The notes beneath the pieces were generated by a model, which searched no databases, had not been told where the DNA came from, and was given only the letters and a program-made list of their open reading frames with translations. Source: Nitrososphaerales archaeon TH5894 (GTDB taxonomy: Archaea > Thermoproteota > Nitrososphaeria > Nitrososphaerales > Nitrososphaeraceae). Taken from it: a DNA stretch of 16,273 nt. Position numbers and translations under genes: made by a program. The stretch lies in the NCBI GenBank assembly GCA_014523485.1, contig JAATVK010000256.1, forward strand, positions 1 to 16,273, given 5' to 3'. Shown here piece after piece: positions 63 through 11,935 of the stretch (position 1 is its first letter; each line of letters begins with the position of its first letter).

Positions 63-1322
63 TTGCATTGGAAAGATACTCTTCCTGATTGGTATGTACG
101 TGAATACGGGTACCAACCTAATGTAAATATTGGTACTGCAGGACATGTTGATCATGGAAAAACTACATTAATTGAAGCTATAACTGGAATTTGGACTAGT
201 GCTCATAGCGAAGAACTAAGGAGGGGTATAACTATAAAAGTAGGCTACGCTGACGCCGCATTTTATAAATGTAAATCCTGTTCATCACCTGAATGTTACT
301 CTACTAAGCCACAATGTAATAACTGTGGACAGGAGAGTGAACTTTTGCGAATAGCCAGTTTTGTTGATTCACCAGGTCATGAAAGTTTAATGGCCAATAT
401 GTTATCAGGCGCTGCGCTTATGGATGGAGCAATTCTTGTTGTAGCTGCCAATGAATCAGTACCTCGTCCTCAAACCACAGAACATATGCTGGCTTTAGAA
501 GTTCTGGGTATTAAACAAATTGTAATTGTCCAAAACAAAGTAGACCTGACAGAAAAAGAAGAAGCCTTGAAAAATTATGATCAAATAAAAGATTTTGTAG
601 ATAAGAGTGTAGCAAAAAATGCTCCTATTATACCTGTTTCTGCTCAACACAATTTAAATATTGACCTATTAATTGAAGCTTTAGAAAAAAATATCCATAC
701 TCCTCATAGGAATAGACAAACATTTCCAATAATGCATGTTTTACGTTCATTTGATATTAACAAGCCTGGAATGCCTGTAGCCTCAATTCATGGAGGGGCG
801 ATAGGTGGTGCTTTAATTCAAGGTGAATTCAACATAGATGATGAGATTGAAATGCGACCTGGTACACTTAATAGTAAAGGGAAATATTCTCCTATTTATT
901 CCAAAATTTCTAGTTTAGGAACAGGTGCTGGATTGGTCAGTAATGTCAAACCCGGAGGATTAGTGTCTATTGGTACAATTTTAGACCCGTCTTTGGTAAA
1001 GAGTGATTCACTTATTGGTTCGGTAGTAGGTAAACCTGGAACATTGCCTCAAGACATCTATGACGTTTCAATAGATACATATCTTTTTGATACTGCAGTT
1101 GGAACCCAGGAGCCAGTAAAAGTTGACCCAATTAAAAAGAATGAACAACTTCGAATAAATATTGGAACTTTAGCTACCGCTGCTTTAGTTACAAATACTA
1201 AAGAAAATAAAATAGAAATTAACCTAAAAAAACCAGTTTGTATTATACAGAGTAGCAGAGTTGCTTTAAGCAGAAAGATTGGAGAAAGATGGCGTCTAAT
1301 AGGATCAGGCATAACAAAATAA
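63..1322 (+). CDS. eif2g: Translation initiation factor aIF2 subunit gamma
   Basis: This is the GTPase subunit of archaeal initiation factor 2, which delivers methionyl initiator tRNA to the small ribosomal subunit. At 419 residues it has the usual family length. Visible motifs are the P-loop GHVDHGKT (27-34), switch I RGITIK (54-59), a zinc knuckle with C70, C73, C85 and C88, G3 DSPGHE (102-107), NKVD (158-161) and SAQ (193-195). The two beta-barrel domains follow. The P-loop with VDHG, followed by a Zn knuckle, separates it from EF-1A and SelB. The start is TTG: no other start codon lies between it and the upstream in-frame stop at 33-35, and a TATA-like box sits 27 bases before it. It converges on the zinc-ribbon gene at 1357. 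Family assignment is very secure. Confidence 0.97.
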   Translation: MHWKDTLPDWYVREYGYQPNVNIGTAGHVDHGKTTLIEAITGIWTSAHSEELRRGITIKVGYADAAFYKCKSCSSPECYSTKPQCNNCGQESELLRIASFVDSPGHESLMANMLSGAALMDGAILVVAANESVPRPQTTEHMLALEVLGIKQIVIVQNKVDLTEKEEALKNYDQIKDFVDKSVAKNAPIIPVSAQHNLNIDLLIEALEKNIHTPHRNRQTFPIMHVLRSFDINKPGMPVASIHGGAIGGALIQGEFNIDDEIEMRPGTLNSKGKYSPIYSKISSLGTGAGLVSNVKPGGLVSIGTILDPSLVKSDSLIGSVVGKPGTLPQDIYDVSIDTYLFDTAVGTQEPVKVDPIKKNEQLRINIGTLATAALVTNTKENKIEINLKKPVCIIQSSRVALSRKIGERWRLIGSGITK

Positions 1323-1649: not shown

Positions 1650-2756
1650 TTAGATTACTCCTGCCTCTCTAAGTTTCTTTGGCAGGTATTGTTCAGCTAA
1701 ATATTTAAACCCATGCTTAAAAAATGCATCTAATTCGCACTTTTCTTTTTTTTTCAGAAATAAATTTAATTCTTTTTGCCATTGTTTTCCTTGCAACCAT
1801 GGTTTCTTTTTCATATCGTTTGCTCTATTGATATCTTCAGCAGTAACCGATAACCTCGCAACTTCTGGAATATTGTAATCGTATATGTCTGAAAACATCA
1901 TTCCTAGGACTTTGACATTGGGTGCGACCAATCTGTCGCTATCATAACTTAAAGATTCACTCCCAATTTTATAGCGTAAAGCTATACCTAAACCCCAAGG
2001 GTCTGCATCTGCGAATATGACTACAGGTTTTTTCCATTTCTCGTTTAATGTCTTTACCATCATTCTAGTTGCTCTATCAGGCTCTCCGGAACCAGTCATA
2101 AGTATTGCATTGTATTTCTGAATGAATCCAGATTTTCGTATATTATTTAAAACCGTATCTTTTTCTACTACCATAACAAGGTCTGCTTTAACATCCACTA
2201 TTTCTACATCAGACATATTGGTCGGAATTAACTGTGATGTGGCTCTGCTTCCAAGATTGCAATCAATAATATCTCCACCAACACTTAACGTAATAGGACC
2301 AGAAATCATACCTTTTGGTTTAGAAGTGACTGAGAATTCCTCCCTAGGAATTCCAGTAATTACCTCTACTGCTTTAATAGCGTCATCGGAATCCTCTTGA
2401 CTTCTCCAAAACTTTTCTTTATTTTTTTCATCTCCTACAGTACTTAAGGTTGCATAATACATACCTCTAATAGTACTTTCCATTTCTTCATCCACTAACT
2501 TTCGAATTGCATTAGCCATAACTAAATATTGAGAAAATGTCGGAATTTTTTTTGTTGAATTAGGACTTATTATAACCTTTTTGTCTCCTAGTGTTAACAT
2601 CTTCTTTTTTTCTGACCAAAAAGTATTATCATATCCTACTTTCGAAATTTCTAAAGAAGGCATTTGTTTTCCAATCAATACATCATTAGAAATTTCTTTC
2701 ATTATATTCTGAATTTTTTTGATAATTTCTTTGTGTCTTTTATTTTTAGTGGACAA
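1650..2756 (-). CDS. top6A: DNA topoisomerase VI subunit A
   Basis: This is the DNA-cleaving subunit of topoisomerase VI, a Spo11 relative that makes a transient double-strand break and works with Top6B to relax and decatenate DNA. At 368 residues it has normal length. The winged-helix CAP domain contains the catalytic tyrosine region MYYATL (Y100/Y101). The Toprim fold shows the metal-binding glutamate in VVEKD (E197) and the DADPWG motif (D249, D251), so the active site is intact. The start is TTG, only 5 bases after the top6B stop. A Shine-Dalgarno-like GGAG is embedded in the last two codons of top6B (minus strand, 2766-2769), 9 bases before the TTG. That supports this start and translational coupling in a top6B-top6A operon. 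Confidence 0.97.
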   Translation of the reverse strand: MSTKNKRHKEIIKKIQNIMKEISNDVLIGKQMPSLEISKVGYDNTFWSEKKKMLTLGDKKVIISPNSTKKIPTFSQYLVMANAIRKLVDEEMESTIRGMYYATLSTVGDEKNKEKFWRSQEDSDDAIKAVEVITGIPREEFSVTSKPKGMISGPITLSVGGDIIDCNLGSRATSQLIPTNMSDVEIVDVKADLVMVVEKDTVLNNIRKSGFIQKYNAILMTGSGEPDRATRMMVKTLNEKWKKPVVIFADADPWGLGIALRYKIGSESLSYDSDRLVAPNVKVLGMMFSDIYDYNIPEVARLSVTAEDINRANDMKKKPWLQGKQWQKELNLFLKKKEKCELDAFFKHGFKYLAEQYLPKKLREAGVI

Positions 2757-2761
2757 TAACT

Positions 2762-4699
2762 TTATCTCCTATTAAAATCATCAAGGGTTAATTTTTCTAT
2801 TTTTTTTCCTGTAGAAGCTTTACTTTTGGATAAATTCTGAGAACTATCTTTATCCTTAATTTTAGTATTTTTATTTTCTGTATTATTATACAATTTTTTT
2901 CCTATCATCGGTTTGTTTGATTTATTATTTATTTTGTCATTTTCCTTGAAAATTATTTCGGTAGGGGTAATTTCTTTTTTGACATGTTTTTCAGCTATCT
3001 CAATAAATAGTTCTGAAAGCTTAGTACGATCAACCTTTATTGAATCAGAGACAGCATCTACAATTAATGGAATATAATATTTGTACAATTTCAATCTATT
3101 TTCAGCATCTTTGATTTTTAAATCTCGACGTATCTGTGCACTAACTTTTCTATATAGGTCTGATAAACAAAATTTCATATATTTTTTCATTTCACCTTCA
3201 GATGCAATACTTTCCTTTCCTGCACTTTTATAAGGTATTTTTGTAGAACATATATGGAAAAATACATGGAGAGGAAGAAGTTCAACCGCTCTATCTGATT
3301 TGCTGCTTTGATCATTTGCAAATTGCTCTTTTGCCTCTTTTTTAGTAATACCCATTTTATTAATCCCAACCTCGGATACTACTTCCCTTGCAACATCTGA
3401 GCCTTCATCATATAGTAAGGGAATCTTATTTGCAAATCTGTATAATTTGAAGGAATTTATATCTCCACCATACGCAATTCCACATTCAATAATTGTTGGC
3501 CTATTATTAATTACAATAGATCGTGATGAATACGAAGTCAGAGCGGGTTTTAATACTTTAACATTTTGTTTGTTTCCCTCTTGTCCAGGATTTATCGATT
3601 TAAGTTGATCTTTGTTGTTAACAATAACGTATTCAGACATCATCCCTGTCGTTAATATCTTTTCACCTATTGGACTTAAATGGTCAATATGAGGTGACTG
3701 AAATTTCATCTGTTTACAAACATTCACTACTTTGATTAGGTCACTTTCTGAAAAAAGATTACCTAATTTATTACCAATTCCAGAGGCACGTATGATCACA
3801 CGTGCCTTTTCAATCGAAAGTTTTTGAAATGAACTGGCTAAAATAGTTTGAATAGAAGCTTTTTGATTGGAGAAATGTAATATTGCTTTTTTTAAAGTTT
3901 GTAAATCCATATCAGCAGGGTGAGGAAGTACTTCTTTTGCAGGTTCAGGCATTATATCGGTTCTCCTTTCAAAAATTATTTTGCCATCATCACTTTCGAA
4001 AATTAACTTCGAATACGGATTTACAATGCTAGTTTGGGAAATATAATCGTATATCTTGTTTTTAGTAATATGGGATAATCTTGCTCTTAATGTAGCAACA
4101 ATTTTAAAACCATATTTGTCTTTGATAATACTTTCCATTTTTGGCACCATTTTTTTGTTTAACACTATAGGTTTATTTGTTGTTATGTCCGTTCGCAATT
4201 CATAATAATATTCTGAATCTTCATCAATAGATTTTGACCATACTTTTATAGGTTTGTCTGTATCCTTTGAAGAAAATGCCGCAATCATTTTAAGGCCTAC
4301 TCCAAATAGCCCTCTTTGTTGTTTTTCAACATATTTACCTGATGTTAGAAAAGAACAGACAGCTACTGGCACCTTTTCAGAATTGATACCTATGCCATTG
4401 TCTTGACAAGAGAGGGTCCAAAGATCATTTTCAACATCAGTTTGTTTTATTGATATAGAAATACTGGGAAGAATATGATGAAGCTCACAAGAATCTAGTG
4501 AGTTCTCTATCAATTCTCTTATTGCCATGTACAAAATACGTTCCCCGGTAAATCCAGCTAAAGCAGAATTATCTACAAAAAACTCTGATTCAGCTTTTTT
4601 ATTGTATTTTACTTTAGAACTTTTGTGAAGCTGATGAGTTGATTTATTATCAGAATCATTCTTTTGATATTTTAGTTCTAATTTTGAATTTATTTTCAA
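2762..4699 (-). CDS. top6B: DNA topoisomerase VI subunit B
   Basis: This is the GHKL-ATPase subunit of topoisomerase VI, which clamps DNA and drives strand passage through the Top6A gate. Motifs are the N-box RELIENSLDSCE (E62, N66), DNGIGI (100-105) and the glycine-rich lid GLFGVGLKM (130-138). An H2TH region (about 290-360) and a transducer domain follow. AGKESIA (493-499) carries the likely switch lysine K495. At 645 residues it is longer than many archaeal homologues. The excess is a Lys/Asn/Ser-rich, probably disordered tail (about 583-632) ending in the compact IEKLTLDDFNRR. The start is TTG; the 37-residue leader before the ATPase core is low complexity, so the exact start is uncertain. 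It is followed immediately by top6A. Confidence 0.96.
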   Translation of the reverse strand: MKINSKLELKYQKNDSDNKSTHQLHKSSKVKYNKKAESEFFVDNSALAGFTGERILYMAIRELIENSLDSCELHHILPSISISIKQTDVENDLWTLSCQDNGIGINSEKVPVAVCSFLTSGKYVEKQQRGLFGVGLKMIAAFSSKDTDKPIKVWSKSIDEDSEYYYELRTDITTNKPIVLNKKMVPKMESIIKDKYGFKIVATLRARLSHITKNKIYDYISQTSIVNPYSKLIFESDDGKIIFERRTDIMPEPAKEVLPHPADMDLQTLKKAILHFSNQKASIQTILASSFQKLSIEKARVIIRASGIGNKLGNLFSESDLIKVVNVCKQMKFQSPHIDHLSPIGEKILTTGMMSEYVIVNNKDQLKSINPGQEGNKQNVKVLKPALTSYSSRSIVINNRPTIIECGIAYGGDINSFKLYRFANKIPLLYDEGSDVAREVVSEVGINKMGITKKEAKEQFANDQSSKSDRAVELLPLHVFFHICSTKIPYKSAGKESIASEGEMKKYMKFCLSDLYRKVSAQIRRDLKIKDAENRLKLYKYYIPLIVDAVSDSIKVDRTKLSELFIEIAEKHVKKEITPTEIIFKENDKINNKSNKPMIGKKLYNNTENKNTKIKDKDSSQNLSKSKASTGKKIEKLTLDDFNRR

Positions 4700-5405: not shown

Positions 5406-8201
5406 CTATTTAGTGTCTTTTCTCTGTTCTATCGTAACTTTTTGAATCTTTGCTTTTTCAAAATCGATAGGTTGATCAGAAGATTTATTTGTAGTAAGAT
5501 CCTCTATTTTATCTACTATTTCCATTCCATCAATGACTCTTCCAAAAATGGTATATTGATTGTCCAAGAATTTTGAATCTTTTGTAACTATAAAAAATTG
5601 TGAACCTGCACTATTAGGATCTGCGGTTCTTGCCATAGATAATACTCCCCTTTCATGTGGAATGTCATTAAATTCAGCCTCGATAGTATAACCTGGTCCT
5701 CCCGTTCCCCATCTATCTTTTTGAGTACTATTCTTTGTAGTTGGATCTCCCCCTTGTATCACAAAATTTTTTACTATTCGATGAAAAATAGTTCCATCAT
5801 AAAAACCTGTGTTGGAGAGATTTAGAAAGCTCTTGACATGTTTTGGTGCTGCTTCTGGAAAAAATTCTATTGTAATGTTTCCAAGAGATGTTTTTAAAAT
5901 TGCAATATTATCAGATGGTGTCATATTAGCCTTAATCATATTTTCAGGTCTATTATCTGTTGTATTTGATTCTTTGTCCTTTGTTACATTCAGATTTGTA
6001 TTCAACTCTTGAGAGATAGGATTTGGTCTATAATTTTTATTAACTTGATAAAGAAAAACACCAAAAACAATGTCCTCAGTGTCATTTTCAAAACTGGGAG
6101 ATGCATATACGAGCTTATACGGTTGATCATTTGTTCCGTTTATTGGATATTTTATATCTTTAAGATTTAAAGCGATTGTTCCACTTGAATATTCTGGTTG
6201 GATGTTAGTCAACATACCATTACCAAACGATGCGTAAGATATCGGGGTAAAAGGTATTAGTTTCCCAAGTAAGGTATTATTCCAAAAATTTGCATTTGGA
6301 GTGAATCCATCATCTTCTACGTAATCTCTTTCGTTGAAACCGCCAATCTTCATAAACCATTGTTTTTTACTTTCATCTCCGCCACTTCCTAAAGTGTAAA
6401 ATGAATTCCCATTGGGACCATTATGTCTATCTGCTACAATGTATACCAATATATAATCAGCCTTTAGATCTTGAGCAATTTGAGTTGCTGTTTCTTGTTC
6501 GCTCATTAGCATTTTAGCTATGGTCTGTATTCTTGTTTGATTTATTGTTGCATTATCAGCCAAAGTAGTTTTATTTCCTAATGTAGTTATCCAATATCCA
6601 TAATCCCACCATGAAGCTATTACTGAGTCCTTAGGTGTATTGTTCTCTATCCAATCTAATGCAGCTACCCAATCCTCAACCTGCATTCTAAAACCTGTTG
6701 CGCCATTTACTATAGATGGCGGAATATCTGCTGAGCTTATCCAATTAAAATTCTTTGGATATATCACTCCATTATAATCAATCAAAGGAATAGAAATTAA
6801 AAATACAACCATAGCAACAAAGGATATTTTGACTAGAGGTTTTACGTTGGGTAAAATCTTACCTTCTTTAATATTTTTTCTAAATTCCCTTTCCTTTATC
6901 TTGTTCGGATTCTCGATCCTGTTCTGCAAAATGCTCCTAGTTAATTCATAAAGCCCAATAGAGGCTAGTATTACAATTGCTATAGAAGAATATACCATCA
7001 ATCTTGCAAATGTTGCACTAACATACAGACCAGTTATTCCGATTATTAAGGCAAAAATGGTCATGTCTGTTCTTTTAGAAAATGAAACCCAAACCCCAAA
7101 ACCCGCAAATATCAACAATATTGAATAATCTGTAAAATAGTCAATTACTGTTGGGGTAGAATGCTCAGCAACTGATTCAACCAAAGGATTATGAGAAGAC
7201 AAAAAAGGATTGACTGCAACAAGATATCGAAATGATGAAGGTTGATAAGCCCCTACAACAAATATACTTACTATAAGTAAAACAAATACACCAAGTGCTG
7301 CAATAAGATTTCTATTAGCCTTTGAAGAAGAACTTTTCGTCCTTATGATGGTTCCTACAATCGCAAATATCATTCCAACAATGAGAGCTATCCCTGGAAG
7401 TCCTATAACAAAGGAGATACCAGGGCGAGGGAATGCAGCTGCTGTTATTAAGGTTATTATCGTGAAAGTAATAATTCCATAAAGAAATAAGGAATCCTTT
7501 CTTAGAAAAGGTAACGAAAAAAAGAAAATACCTAGTGGAATACTGAAATATTGAATTCCACCCCATGAAGAGTTGGCTAATCCAAGAATTAGTCCTCCTG
7601 CTGCTGCTGTTAGAATAATCCGTTTGATATTTTTGCTTTTTATGGAAGAGGTAAACAAGTACACAGACAACAGTGCCAAGAAAAGGCCTAAAGGCTCAGA
7701 TTTAAACCATCCCAAATTTCCTCTCTGAATTATTGCGGGCATAAAAGCAAACAAGAGACTTGCGAACATCCCCGCGGTAGTGCCACTCAAATTTCTTACA
7801 AGAGCAAAAATAACTATAGTAGTCAGGGATCCTATTATTACTGGAAACATTATAACAAAATCCATAAGTGAACTACCAAAACCAAAAATTTTATACATGG
7901 TTGCTGCTATAAGATGAAGAGCGACTTGTGAGGTTGTGGGTACGAATCTACCTTCAGGATACCAAGACTCATAGTCATGCCAATTTAAATAGGCTTCAAA
8001 GCCATTATCAATAATATATTTAGTGGCTCTGTAATCAAAATATGGATCGAATTCATTTAAAGCAAAACCATATTTTATTGGATAGGATCTTATAATAAAG
8101 GCAGTAGAAAAGGCTATTATCAAAACCAAAATCACAAGAAGATGTTTAGCCTGAAATTGAAAGGAGCTTACTCTAAATAATGTTTTATTGCCCGATAACA
8201 A
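5406..8201 (-). CDS. aglB: AglB/STT3 oligosaccharyltransferase fused to a cyclophilin-type prolyl isomerase
   Basis: This 931-residue membrane protein transfers lipid-linked glycans to Asn in N-X-S/T sequons on the outer face of the membrane. Residues 1-475 hold about 13 membrane segments. The first external loop carries NEFDPYFDY (D52, metal-binding acid). SVAE (343-346) corresponds to the archaeal/eukaryotic SVSE loop. The catalytic-domain signature WWDYG is at 531-535. After the AglB globular domain (to about 725), a linker rich in Asn/Thr (about 730-763) leads to a complete cyclophilin domain (765-927). That domain has FHRIVKNFVIQGGD (R808, F813, Q816), GTGGPGY (832-838), SMAR (855-858) and SQFF (867-870); the human CypA Trp121 position is Phe (F878). 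The reading frame is continuous with no frameshift. The topology places the isomerase outside the cell membrane. The start is TTG; an AT-rich box lies about 30 bases upstream. Confidence 0.95.
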   Translation of the reverse strand: MLSGNKTLFRVSSFQFQAKHLLVILVLIIAFSTAFIIRSYPIKYGFALNEFDPYFDYRATKYIIDNGFEAYLNWHDYESWYPEGRFVPTTSQVALHLIAATMYKIFGFGSSLMDFVIMFPVIIGSLTTIVIFALVRNLSGTTAGMFASLLFAFMPAIIQRGNLGWFKSEPLGLFLALLSVYLFTSSIKSKNIKRIILTAAAGGLILGLANSSWGGIQYFSIPLGIFFFSLPFLRKDSLFLYGIITFTIITLITAAAFPRPGISFVIGLPGIALIVGMIFAIVGTIIRTKSSSSKANRNLIAALGVFVLLIVSIFVVGAYQPSSFRYLVAVNPFLSSHNPLVESVAEHSTPTVIDYFTDYSILLIFAGFGVWVSFSKRTDMTIFALIIGITGLYVSATFARLMVYSSIAIVILASIGLYELTRSILQNRIENPNKIKEREFRKNIKEGKILPNVKPLVKISFVAMVVFLISIPLIDYNGVIYPKNFNWISSADIPPSIVNGATGFRMQVEDWVAALDWIENNTPKDSVIASWWDYGYWITTLGNKTTLADNATINQTRIQTIAKMLMSEQETATQIAQDLKADYILVYIVADRHNGPNGNSFYTLGSGGDESKKQWFMKIGGFNERDYVEDDGFTPNANFWNNTLLGKLIPFTPISYASFGNGMLTNIQPEYSSGTIALNLKDIKYPINGTNDQPYKLVYASPSFENDTEDIVFGVFLYQVNKNYRPNPISQELNTNLNVTKDKESNTTDNRPENMIKANMTPSDNIAILKTSLGNITIEFFPEAAPKHVKSFLNLSNTGFYDGTIFHRIVKNFVIQGGDPTTKNSTQKDRWGTGGPGYTIEAEFNDIPHERGVLSMARTADPNSAGSQFFIVTKDSKFLDNQYTIFGRVIDGMEIVDKIEDLTTNKSSDQPIDFEKAKIQKVTIEQRKDTK

Positions 8202-8357: not shown

Positions 8358-9311
8358 TCATGCCGATGGTGTAGTGATAAGAGATGAATAAAGGAAAGGT
8401 AATAATGTTGTAATTTCTCCATGTATAGTGACTTGTTTTGCATCGACCCTTATCTTATTCCATGATATAGCTTCTTTCACTTCTGCTCCACTCAAACTTC
8501 CATCCCAAGCATTAGCAGTAGTAATATAAACGGCATAATCTAATCCATCTCTAAACTGATTCCACCATAGAGTGTGATGTTTAGATATTCCACCTCCTAA
8601 CATTAATGCCCCAGTTTTTTTTGCTTCAAATATAATATCAGAAATTTTAGTTTGATCTTTTAAAATATTAAGAAACATGTCCTTGTGATTCTGATAAAAT
8701 AACCATACCTGACTTCCTACCGCTCCGTCAACTATACCAGGGACAATAACAGGGATTTTGTTTTTATGAGCCCAATATAAAAAAGATGTTTCCCCTAATT
8801 TACTACCTATATAGTCAAGTAATTCATAACATGCAAATTGTTTATTCTCTTTGTAAAATTCATTAATATATTCTTGTAATTTAGTTTCGATTAAAGGACC
8901 ATAATTTTCTACAGGAATGAATACATTACCTAATCTGTGAATATTTTTTTTTTTAAGATAATAGTCATCGGTATTAAAATCTCCATGATAATATTTAGCA
9001 AATGATCTGGCTATATCATGATCTAAAGAACCGCATGTAGTTATTAAACAATTGAACATATTTTTTTTGACCATATCTTTAATTATTCCCCGTACGCCAG
9101 TAGAAATTATTGCTCCCACAAAAGATAAAAAAGTGGTACAATTAGGTTCTTCAATCATTTTTTGTAATATACTAATTCCGTCCCTCAAATTTACAGATTC
9201 AAATCCTCCTGATTTTGACATTTGATTTAAAACTTCCTTTAACTCACGGTTTTGAATATTATAATCCTCAATTTCATAATTGATTTTTTTTTGATTTTTA
9301 TTATAGGTCAT
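8358..9311 (-). CDS. dys: Deoxyhypusine synthase (canonical-type paralogue)
   Basis: Deoxyhypusine synthase moves the aminobutyl group of spermidine onto a lysine of aIF5A using NAD, the first step of hypusine formation. The 317-residue protein keeps the family landmarks: TTCGSLDHDI (91-100), HRLGNVFIP (125-133), PGIVDGAVGS (191-200), GGGISKHH with the active-site His (H245/H246) and SGAEVKEAISWNKI (274-287). The last contains E280 and the imine-forming lysine K286 (human E323 and K329). The HH after GGG and the NRxGN-like stretch make this the paralogue most like eukaryotic and archaeal DHS, so it is the better candidate for aIF5A modification. ATG start; an AT-rich promoter lies 27 bases upstream. 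It is divergent from the second paralogue at 9409. Confidence 0.92.
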   Translation of the reverse strand: MTYNKNQKKINYEIEDYNIQNRELKEVLNQMSKSGGFESVNLRDGISILQKMIEEPNCTTFLSFVGAIISTGVRGIIKDMVKKNMFNCLITTCGSLDHDIARSFAKYYHGDFNTDDYYLKKKNIHRLGNVFIPVENYGPLIETKLQEYINEFYKENKQFACYELLDYIGSKLGETSFLYWAHKNKIPVIVPGIVDGAVGSQVWLFYQNHKDMFLNILKDQTKISDIIFEAKKTGALMLGGGISKHHTLWWNQFRDGLDYAVYITTANAWDGSLSGAEVKEAISWNKIRVDAKQVTIHGEITTLLPFLYSSLITTPSA

Positions 9312-9408: not shown

Positions 9409-10488
9409 GTGAATAATAAACACTCTTTTACCGGAAAAAAAATTGATCCTCCCAATATATACCCAAACATGTCTATTTCTGATCTTATTTCTTTCTATGG
9501 ATCTACTGGATTTAATGCTAGGCGATTGTCAGAAGCCGCAAAGATGTTGAAAAAAATGATTGATACTGAAGCCACTATTTGTTTAACTATTTCAGGAGCA
9601 ATGACTCCAATAGGACTTGGAAAATGTATTTCAACTTTAATTGAGAAAGGTTTTATTGATTGGATTATTACGACAGGAGCTAATGCTTACCATGATCTTC
9701 ATTTCGCCTATGATTTGCCTGTCAGACAAGGTCATTTTGATGTTGATGACGATATTTTATATTCTAAACAAATCGTTAGAATTTATGATGTTTATATTAA
9801 AGAAGTAGAAACACTTCAACGACAAGACGATCTTATACAAGACACTATAAGAAAGATGAGCAAAAGAATAGTAAATCCTGTAAAAGATATTTCAACATCC
9901 GATCTTTCTTACCGACTAGGTGAGAATGCTTATCATCATTCTCCTTTTCCTGTTAAATCTTTCATGGTTTCTGCTTTTAAAAATGAGGTCCCAGTTTATA
10001 TCCCCTCACTGACCGATTCATCAATTGGAATGAATATGATACCACTTCTTTTTGAGTCATCCTTACCTCCTATCAATCTTTTCTCAGATATTTCTGAATC
10101 AGCAGCAATATTATGGAAAAGTAAAATTTCAGGAGGCATAGAATTAGGTGGAGGAGTACCCAAAAATTTCTTTCAACAAACCGGTCCCACATTATATCAG
10201 ATTTTGAAAATAAAAGAAAAAGGTCATGACTATGTAATTCAATTAACTGACGCAAGACCTGATACAGGTGGTTTATCTGGAGCAACAATCCAAGAAGGGA
10301 AGAGTTGGGGAAAAATAAAAACATCTCATGCTGGCAATGTAATTGTTTATGGGGATTCTTCTGTTTATTTTCCCCTCCTGAGTTCCTATGTTTTGTCCGA
10401 ATGTAAACCAAGAAAACAAAAGAGATTATATCATTTGAAAGATAAGTTTGTAAAGGAAATGAAGGATAATTATTTAAAAAAAAATTAA
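9409..10488 (+). CDS. Deoxyhypusine synthase-family protein, second (bacterial-type) paralogue
   Basis: This 359-residue protein belongs to the deoxyhypusine synthase superfamily but to a different branch from its neighbour. It shows TTGANAYHDLHFA (88-100), the insert-like RQGHFDVDDD (106-115), IYDVYI, PSLTDSSIGMNM (199-210), GGGVPKNFFQQTGP (247-260), TDARPDTGGLSGAT (280-293) and EGKSWGKI with lysine K302 at the catalytic position (E296 six residues earlier). PKNF replaces the active-site His region of canonical DHS. This pattern is typical of bacterial-type DHS-like proteins, some of which act as homospermidine synthases. A role in polyamine synthesis is therefore plausible, as is aIF5A modification; the sequence cannot decide. 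The GTG start is fixed by a TATA box 28 bases upstream. Confidence 0.88.
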   Translation: MNNKHSFTGKKIDPPNIYPNMSISDLISFYGSTGFNARRLSEAAKMLKKMIDTEATICLTISGAMTPIGLGKCISTLIEKGFIDWIITTGANAYHDLHFAYDLPVRQGHFDVDDDILYSKQIVRIYDVYIKEVETLQRQDDLIQDTIRKMSKRIVNPVKDISTSDLSYRLGENAYHHSPFPVKSFMVSAFKNEVPVYIPSLTDSSIGMNMIPLLFESSLPPINLFSDISESAAILWKSKISGGIELGGGVPKNFFQQTGPTLYQILKIKEKGHDYVIQLTDARPDTGGLSGATIQEGKSWGKIKTSHAGNVIVYGDSSVYFPLLSSYVLSECKPRKQKRLYHLKDKFVKEMKDNYLKKN

Positions 10489-11852: not shown

Positions 11853-11935
11853 GGTGGGGTGGCAGAGCGGCTATGCGTTCGCCTGCAGAAATTGTTGATA
11901 GCGAATATATAGGGGTTCGAATCCCTTCCCCACCT
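11853..11935 (+). tRNA. tRNA-Cys(GCA) with a short intron
   Basis: The acceptor stem GGTGGGG (11853-11859) pairs fully with CCCCACC (11928-11934). The discriminator is T (U73, 11935), the identity base of tRNA-Cys. The D-arm GCAGAGCGGCTATGC (11862-11876) is typical of archaeal tRNA-Cys. The anticodon stem TTCGC (11878-11882) pairs with GCGAA (11901-11905), and the T-arm is AGGGG-TTCGAAT-CCCTT (11911-11927). The loop reads CTGCAG with anticodon GCA at 11885-11887 but is 18 bases long instead of 7. An 11-base intron (11889-11899, or equivalently 11890-11900) at the canonical 37/38 site restores a 7-base loop. CCA is not encoded. The mature length would be 72 bases. Confidence 0.93.

Follow-up and report, generated by a model that had tools for sequence, protein, structure and literature searches.

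A cyclophilin domain joined to the STT3/AglB oligosaccharyltransferase of Nitrososphaerales: an old fusion with repeated losses

In a 16,273-nucleotide stretch of DNA from the Nitrososphaerales archaeon TH5894 (contig JAATVK010000256.1; this whole stretch is called the window below), one gene encodes both an oligosaccharyltransferase (OST) of the STT3/AglB type and a cyclophilin, a prolyl isomerase. The fusion is real with near certainty: two complete domains lie in a continuous open reading frame of 931 codons and Pfam recognizes both of them, which bears out the single frame proposed in a preliminary description of this DNA. As judged from sequence, residues 1-725 are a complete STT3/AglB oligosaccharyltransferase and residues 765-927 a complete cyclophilin. 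The architecture is old, conserved and, in the open-access literature that we searched, apparently undescribed. It is a natural covalent pair of oligosaccharyltransferase and prolyl isomerase, present in many ammonia-oxidizing archaea and retained from the common ancestor of four families onward, and as a single-subunit system it lets one ask whether a folding catalyst beside the transferase changes the sites that are glycosylated. The gene and its parts, in window coordinates, are:

5406..8201, minus strand (read 8201..5406): aglB/STT3-cyclophilin fusion gene, 931 amino acids, TTG start, without internal stop
6966..8135, minus strand: STT3 transmembrane catalytic domain PF02516, residues 23-412 (Pfam 1.1e-29)
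8028..8048, minus strand: DPYFDYR motif, residues 52-58; D52 invariant in a 52-row alignment
7164..7175, minus strand: SVAE motif, residues 343-346; S343 and E346 invariant in the same alignment
6597..6611, minus strand: WWDYG motif, residues 531-535; invariant in the same alignment
6351..6377, minus strand: DESKKQWFM stretch, residues 609-617; aligns with the D..K stretch of human STT3A
5910..6023, minus strand: linker, residues 727-764; rich in Ser, Thr and Asn in the family
5421..5909, minus strand: cyclophilin domain, residues 765-927 (PF00160 at residues 769-912, 5466-5897, 3e-51)
5778..5780, minus strand: catalytic Arg808, equivalent to R55 of human CypA
5763..5765, minus strand: catalytic Phe813, equivalent to CypA F60
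5754..5756, minus strand: catalytic Gln816, equivalent to CypA Q63

The start codon is uncertain, some relatives among the matches listed being 909 amino acids long. The transferase part scores 104.7 bits against PF02516 (cut-off 24.5) and 31.1 bits against PF21436 (cut-off 23), while PF22627, an AglB_core-like family, falls slightly below its cut-off (26.2 against 27); the STT3-PglB_core match covers residues 525-582 (3.9e-07). The fold is GT-C with a C-terminal soluble domain. The first-loop Asp and the SV.E-type, WWDYG and D..K motifs (residues 52, 343-346, 531-535 and 609-612) are all present and invariant or nearly so across the 52 rows, and we take the stretch at residues 609-617 to be what is called the DK motif. 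The residues singled out in the preliminary description (D52, SVAE 343, WWDYG 531, R808, F813 and Q816) all stand at the positions it gave. With 129.2 bits against a threshold of 450, the protein is not a member of the NCBIfam family TIGR04154 (archaeosortase A system-associated STT3). The membrane domain is most likely a single-subunit GT66 oligosaccharyltransferase of the STT3/AglB type, predicted to act on Asn-X-Ser/Thr.

The cyclophilin part matches PF00160 with 174.3 bits (cut-off 21.7) and has the cyclophilin fold. Among 66 fused copies, a set that contains near-identical ones, the catalytic residues (CypA numbering) are retained almost throughout: Arg55 in 66/66, Phe60 and Gln63 in 65/66 each, and Phe113 in 64/66, with Tyr in the other two. 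Both domains are under purifying selection. The ratio of nonsynonymous to synonymous substitution (dN/dS), a rough value here since several dS exceed 1, is 0.03-0.16 for the cyclophilin in 11 of 11 pairs, close to the 0.06-0.11 of the STT3 part in 9 of 11. The linker diverges rapidly (0.37-1.21 in 8 of 11 pairs). In the predicted structure, its residues 730-757 have a predicted local distance difference test score (pLDDT) below 50, that is, they are disordered; across 44 non-redundant fused copies it is 10-96 residues long and consists of 17% Thr, 16-17% Ser, 11% Asn and 8% Pro.

From residue 484 onward the maximum 19-residue mean hydropathy is 0.85. Because no peak rises above this value, the cyclophilin should lie on the same side of the membrane as the WWDYG domain. 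The C-terminal domain of STT3/AglB is extracytoplasmic, as homology to solved STT3/AglB also indicates, and this would put the cyclophilin outside, where it would meet the proteins that the transferase modifies. The placement outside that the preliminary description had suggested is supported by this topology, and given the retained active-site residues we consider the domain very probably external and catalytically competent. Glycosylation sequons add weak support for exposure. In 21 Nitrososphaeraceae rows, the cyclophilin holds 56 sequons against 33.3 +/- 5.3 in shuffled sequences and the linker 60 against 41.2 +/- 5.0; the corresponding numbers in 21 Nitrosopumilaceae rows are 17 against 26.5 +/- 4.3 and 16 against 9.1 +/- 2.1. 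When the reversed motif served as control in Nitrososphaeraceae, the linker gave 61 against 32 (p 0.004) and the cyclophilin 57 against 39 (p 0.08), and after thinning to 65% identity no significant excess over the reversed motif was found in this family.

Both PF02516 and PF00160 are found in 116 of the 120 relatives listed (out of 4719), the four exceptions being shorter pieces, and in 113/113 of those listed with a query coverage of 90% or more. Recognition of the fusion should aid annotation, as the names listed ('peptidylprolyl isomerase', 'DUF6541 family protein' and 'dolichyl-diphosphooligosaccharide--protein glycosyltransferase') cover half of the protein at most. The set retrieved contains 71 full-length fused loci, some of them duplicated, or 44 at 85% non-redundancy. 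Among 80 named loci 38 are full-length fused, including those of Nitrososphaera, Nitrosocosmicus, Nitrosotalea and Nitrosotenuis; unfused are Nitrosarchaeum (2/2), Cenarchaeum (2/2) and most Nitrosopumilus. We then sampled 74 of 400 Nitrososphaerales genomes, one to five per genus, with complete genomes favoured and cyclophilin-less ones included. Genes were called fused or unfused from STT3 and cyclophilin matches at an equal place together with frame length, and the frameshifted G346 was counted as fused. An STT3 match was present in 68 of the 74 genomes, fused in 28, unfused in 39 and an unjudgeable fragment in one (G185). Family f1 has 13 fused, 4 unfused and 1 fragment; f2 (Nitrosopumilaceae) has 13 fused and 17 unfused; f3 and f5 have 1 fused each; and f4, f6, f7, f11, f12, f14 and f15 jointly have 0/18 fused. 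Outside the order, in a search limited to the phylum, 37 cyclophilin-matching genomes gave 47 PF00160 matches in frames of 100-646 amino acids, none of fusion length. Confinement to one narrow clade, raised as a check in the preliminary description, is rejected by the fused forms in f1, f2, f3 and f5.

STT3 trees with an outgroup give the fusion a single origin, before Nitrososphaeraceae, Nitrosopumilaceae and two smaller families diverged, followed by five to six losses. A 110-row STT3 tree requires seven label changes, one gain and six losses, with the gain placed ahead of the ancestor shared by all 92 rows left when an 18-row outgroup is set aside. A monophyly check of this outgroup came out false, but the descendants of the last ancestor common to the fused rows comprise all rows except 18, as many as the outgroup has. 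L122, which accounts for one of the six losses, sits on a long branch whose placement is unsure. A mixture-model tree of 75 rows without L122, whose outgroup separates with 100/100, requires six changes, one gain and five losses, and six are also found across the 5-95% range of 200 bootstrap trees. Since change counts alone cannot distinguish gain from loss, the direction comes from the outgroup. For these trees the STT3 rows were thinned from 148 to 113, after which L136, L141 and L065 were dropped as cut pieces; the 75-row tree omits these three together with L122, L220, eight outgroup rows and most marine rows, and L074 was labelled fused despite a frameshift. The five losses affect the marine Nitrosopumilus/Nitrosarchaeum clade, Cenarchaeum, a Nitrosopolaris group and the single Nitrososphaeraceae rows L219 and L051. 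In L219 (genome G317), a stop in the linker is followed by recognisable broken pieces of cyclophilin, a decaying remnant. Several independent fusions are not needed: a quick cyclophilin tree splits the fused copies, but a tree in which all of them are held together is 15.7 log units better than the free tree (p-AU 0.73 in the approximately unbiased (AU) test; rows thinned from 133 to 91, L201 excluded from the AU tests).

What the fused domain does is, we think, probably to act as an external foldase tethered at the glycosylation site, where it would aid envelope-protein folding. In this model the linker would flexibly tether the cyclophilin to the extracytoplasmic C-terminal domain of the transferase, the membrane domain would transfer a lipid-linked glycan to Asn-X-Ser/Thr sites on exported chains, and the isomerase would accelerate proline cis-trans changes in those chains, envelope proteins such as the S-layer protein and multicopper oxidases, on their exit from the translocon next to the transferase. 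The observations behind it are that a single frame holds both complete domains with their active-site residues intact, that the fusion goes back to one old event on the tree and that both domains are under purifying selection; the isomerase activity is predicted from the residues, and the substrates shared with the transferase and the benefit to folding or glycosylation are likewise putative. A stronger proposal, that N-glycosylation and proline isomerization of nascent envelope proteins became coupled on one enzyme in the ancestor of most ammonia-oxidizing archaea, is tentative, with the balance tipped against it.

Several observations weigh against a tethered foldase. The domain was lost five to six times. 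In the unfused Nitrososphaeraceae genomes G329, G265 and G317 there is a short cyclophilin that by eye lacks a signal sequence; G317 has the remnant besides, and G265 a weak match to a fragment. In G249, 93% complete, no cyclophilin match was found. The domain is therefore required neither for viability nor for having the transferase. It appears to have been copied onto a different secreted protein in g2 genomes, and in some archaea of the order there are other external isomerases, for example the parvulin NmPin (PMC4922055). The sequon enrichment of the fused cyclophilin, finally, is weak once the reversed motif serves as control, and Nitrosopumilaceae show none. Repeated loss, the copying of the domain to a second carrier and the lack of a cyclophilin match in G249 argue in particular against obligate coupling.

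The second g2 protein is found at L230:1529-2932 (the same gene as L153), L229 and L181, in frames of 453-484 amino acids with a C-terminal cyclophilin; the cyclophilins of L153 and L181 fall inside the OST-fused clade, as if copied from the transferase. Because carriers other than STT3 can also bear an external cyclophilin, it stays conceivable, though rather unlikely, that the transferase is merely a membrane anchor for a general external foldase, without kinetic coupling to glycosylation. Such carriers are the g2 protein, a solute-binding-like protein of another family and, in Nitrosopumilaceae, a separate exported and anchored cyclophilin composed of a signal, the cyclophilin, a PsbP-like domain and a C-terminal membrane segment (Pfam on one example, L016; the others were assigned by tree and by eye). 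The anchored type occurs in 17/17 sampled f2 genomes with unfused STT3 and in 6/13 with fused STT3 (Fisher p 0.0008, ignoring shared ancestry). Compensation, that is, loss of the fusion where another external cyclophilin exists, accordingly holds in the sampled Nitrosopumilaceae but fails in Nitrososphaeraceae. Against a mere anchor, the cyclophilin, having been joined to STT3 a single time, was kept there in four families, and human OST also seems to gather isomerases, to go by PMC9892003 and the title of PDB entry 9n9j.

The exported Nitrosopumilaceae cyclophilins are at loci L010, L016, L143, L162-L171 and L175-L180. In L016 the PsbP-like domain (3.2e-06) is followed by a CLIATAAYGSE stretch and then the C-terminal membrane segment, and among the others one frame has a stop (G103) and one is 366 amino acids long (G178). 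The solute-binding-like protein is a 602-residue frame at L234:1492-3297 (minus strand; genome G531, same phylum, other family), which by eye resembles an exported solute-binding protein and has a cyclophilin at its C-terminus. A further unusual fusion of envelope folding enzymes, found by Pfam at L174:2656-5616 (G142), joins an exported cyclophilin with glucose/sorbosone dehydrogenase and a DsbA-like thioredoxin; a similar frame occurs in L173 (G037), the lengths being 988 and 923 amino acids.

It is improbable that the cyclophilin acts non-catalytically, either binding acceptor chains so that they stay unfolded or lending stability to the transferase. Such a role would resemble that of the thioredoxin-type Ost3/Ost6 (MagT1) subunits, which hold substrates for eukaryotic OST, and the flexible linker attaches the cyclophilin to the C-terminal domain bearing WWDYG; yet 65-66 of 66 fused copies retain the catalytic Arg, Phe and Gln, which would be dispensable in a mere holder. 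An artefact, whether a sequencing or assembly error joining two genes or two products from one locus, has next to no credibility, and as an assembly error it is rejected: two metagenome-assembled loci (L074, L200) do show a frameshift between or within the domains, but single-contig genomes (e.g. G070, G100, G109, G132 and G136) and numerous separate assemblies share the same fusion, and purifying selection acts on both domains, so that the sequencing error feared in the preliminary description does not account for it. The frameshifts at L074:6001-8756 and L200:2440-5107 lie between or within the STT3 linker and the cyclophilin and reflect either sequencing error or a real split.

The neighbours of the fusion gene in the window include:

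63-1322, plus strand: aIF2-gamma
1650-2756, minus strand: topoisomerase VI A
2762-4699, minus strand: topoisomerase VI B
between the topoisomerase VI genes and the fusion: a 126-residue frame without family
8358-9311, minus strand, and 9409-10488, plus strand: two divergent deoxyhypusine-synthase-family genes

At loci with the gene and more than 6.4 kb of sequence, aIF2-gamma was found in 60/90 (36/51 full-length fused, 24/39 others), lying within 2 kb of it in 57 loci and roughly 4-5 kb off in the other 3, where topoisomerase VI intervenes in the window's group; it was not found within the available stretch of the remaining 30. The fused and unfused forms thus stand mostly in one common neighbourhood. 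Both deoxyhypusine-synthase-family genes are near aglB in many Nitrososphaeraceae loci; one is nearest to deoxyhypusine synthase and the other to homospermidine biosynthesis protein (445.7 bits, cut-off 450). A tRNA-Cys(GCA) at 11853-11935 (plus strand), with an 11-base intron at position 37/38, was found by Rfam and by ARAGORN with introns allowed, and was missed by ARAGORN as first run. In the source assembly (2.36 Mb in 281 contigs, 87.5% complete), the fusion is the sole PF02516 and the sole PF00160 match, alongside one FKBP and one short parvulin, and in the same-genus genome G082 (98% complete) the single cyclophilin match is again the fused one.

The preliminary description knew of no earlier account of an STT3/AglB-cyclophilin fusion, and none was found in open-access PubMed Central full text; key subscription papers fall outside this scope and may contain a prior mention. 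In the available text of a 2021 census of archaeal isomerases (PMC8530231; 106/122 sequences kept), some cyclophilins are multi-domain with the isomerase domain N-terminal, and the words oligosaccharyl, STT3, fusion, fused and glycosyl have 0 occurrences. According to the main text of PMC12153357, in which isomerase and cyclophilin have 0 occurrences, AglB of Nitrososphaera viennensis is in the proteome at all three times, and two multicopper oxidases and the S-layer protein bear an N-glycan. Nitrosopumilus piranensis shows an AglB signal ~5-15x lower and yielded no identified N-glycoprotein; for Nitrosopumilus maritimus, also marine, N-glycosylation has been suggested, as cited there. With the fusion state of the two strains taken from their genera and G132, the contrast between N. 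viennensis and N. piranensis, two species only, is compatible with a role of the fusion in glycosylation. We conjecture from this one species pair that marine loss of the cyclophilin would accompany relaxed N-glycosylation.

Compared with the STT3/AglB proteins of human (STT3A, 6s7o), yeast (STT3, 8age) and Archaeoglobus fulgidus (AglB, 3waj and 5gmy), the fusion adds a C-terminal linker and cyclophilin. Among the 60 matches listed for residues 1-729, the solved sequence relatives are all eukaryotic, human/canine STT3A first, with no archaeal AglB. Single-domain cyclophilins (E. coli PpiA/PpiB, human, archaeal cytoplasmic) have in common with the fused copy the full fold (32-43% identity and a root-mean-square deviation of 1.0-2.8 among the matches listed; structures compared with VIA-align) and the catalytic R, F and Q; the fused copy differs in being joined to a membrane transferase and in its predicted external location. 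It also differs at the CypA Trp121 position, which is Phe in 42/66 and Trp in 12/66 fused copies, and at His126, which is Tyr in 66/66. The membrane-associated parvulin NmPin of Nitrosopumilus maritimus, proposed to fold S-layer proteins outside the membrane, resembles the fusion as another isomerase proposed to be external but belongs to a different isomerase family, and the available text of PMC4922055, with 0 occurrences of 'oligosaccharyl', draws no link to an oligosaccharyltransferase. A parallel is the eukaryotic OST-translocon, in which a prolyl isomerase likewise lies at or near catalytic STT3 on the lumenal side: in tomograms of the endoplasmic reticulum, an unassigned lumenal density at human OST-A best fits cyclophilin B, though not unambiguously, with isomerases taken as transient binders in PMC9892003, and the title of the 2025 PDB entry 9n9j names an FKBP11-bound secretory translocon. 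There, unlike in the fusion, the partners are separate proteins and the cyclophilin B assignment is tentative. The statement of the preliminary description that eukaryotes use separate cyclophilins and OST subunits stands, while the contrast it drew is blunted by the cyclophilin B-like density at OST-A, and eukaryotic OST may reach by recruiting separate isomerases the same end that these archaea would reach with one polypeptide.
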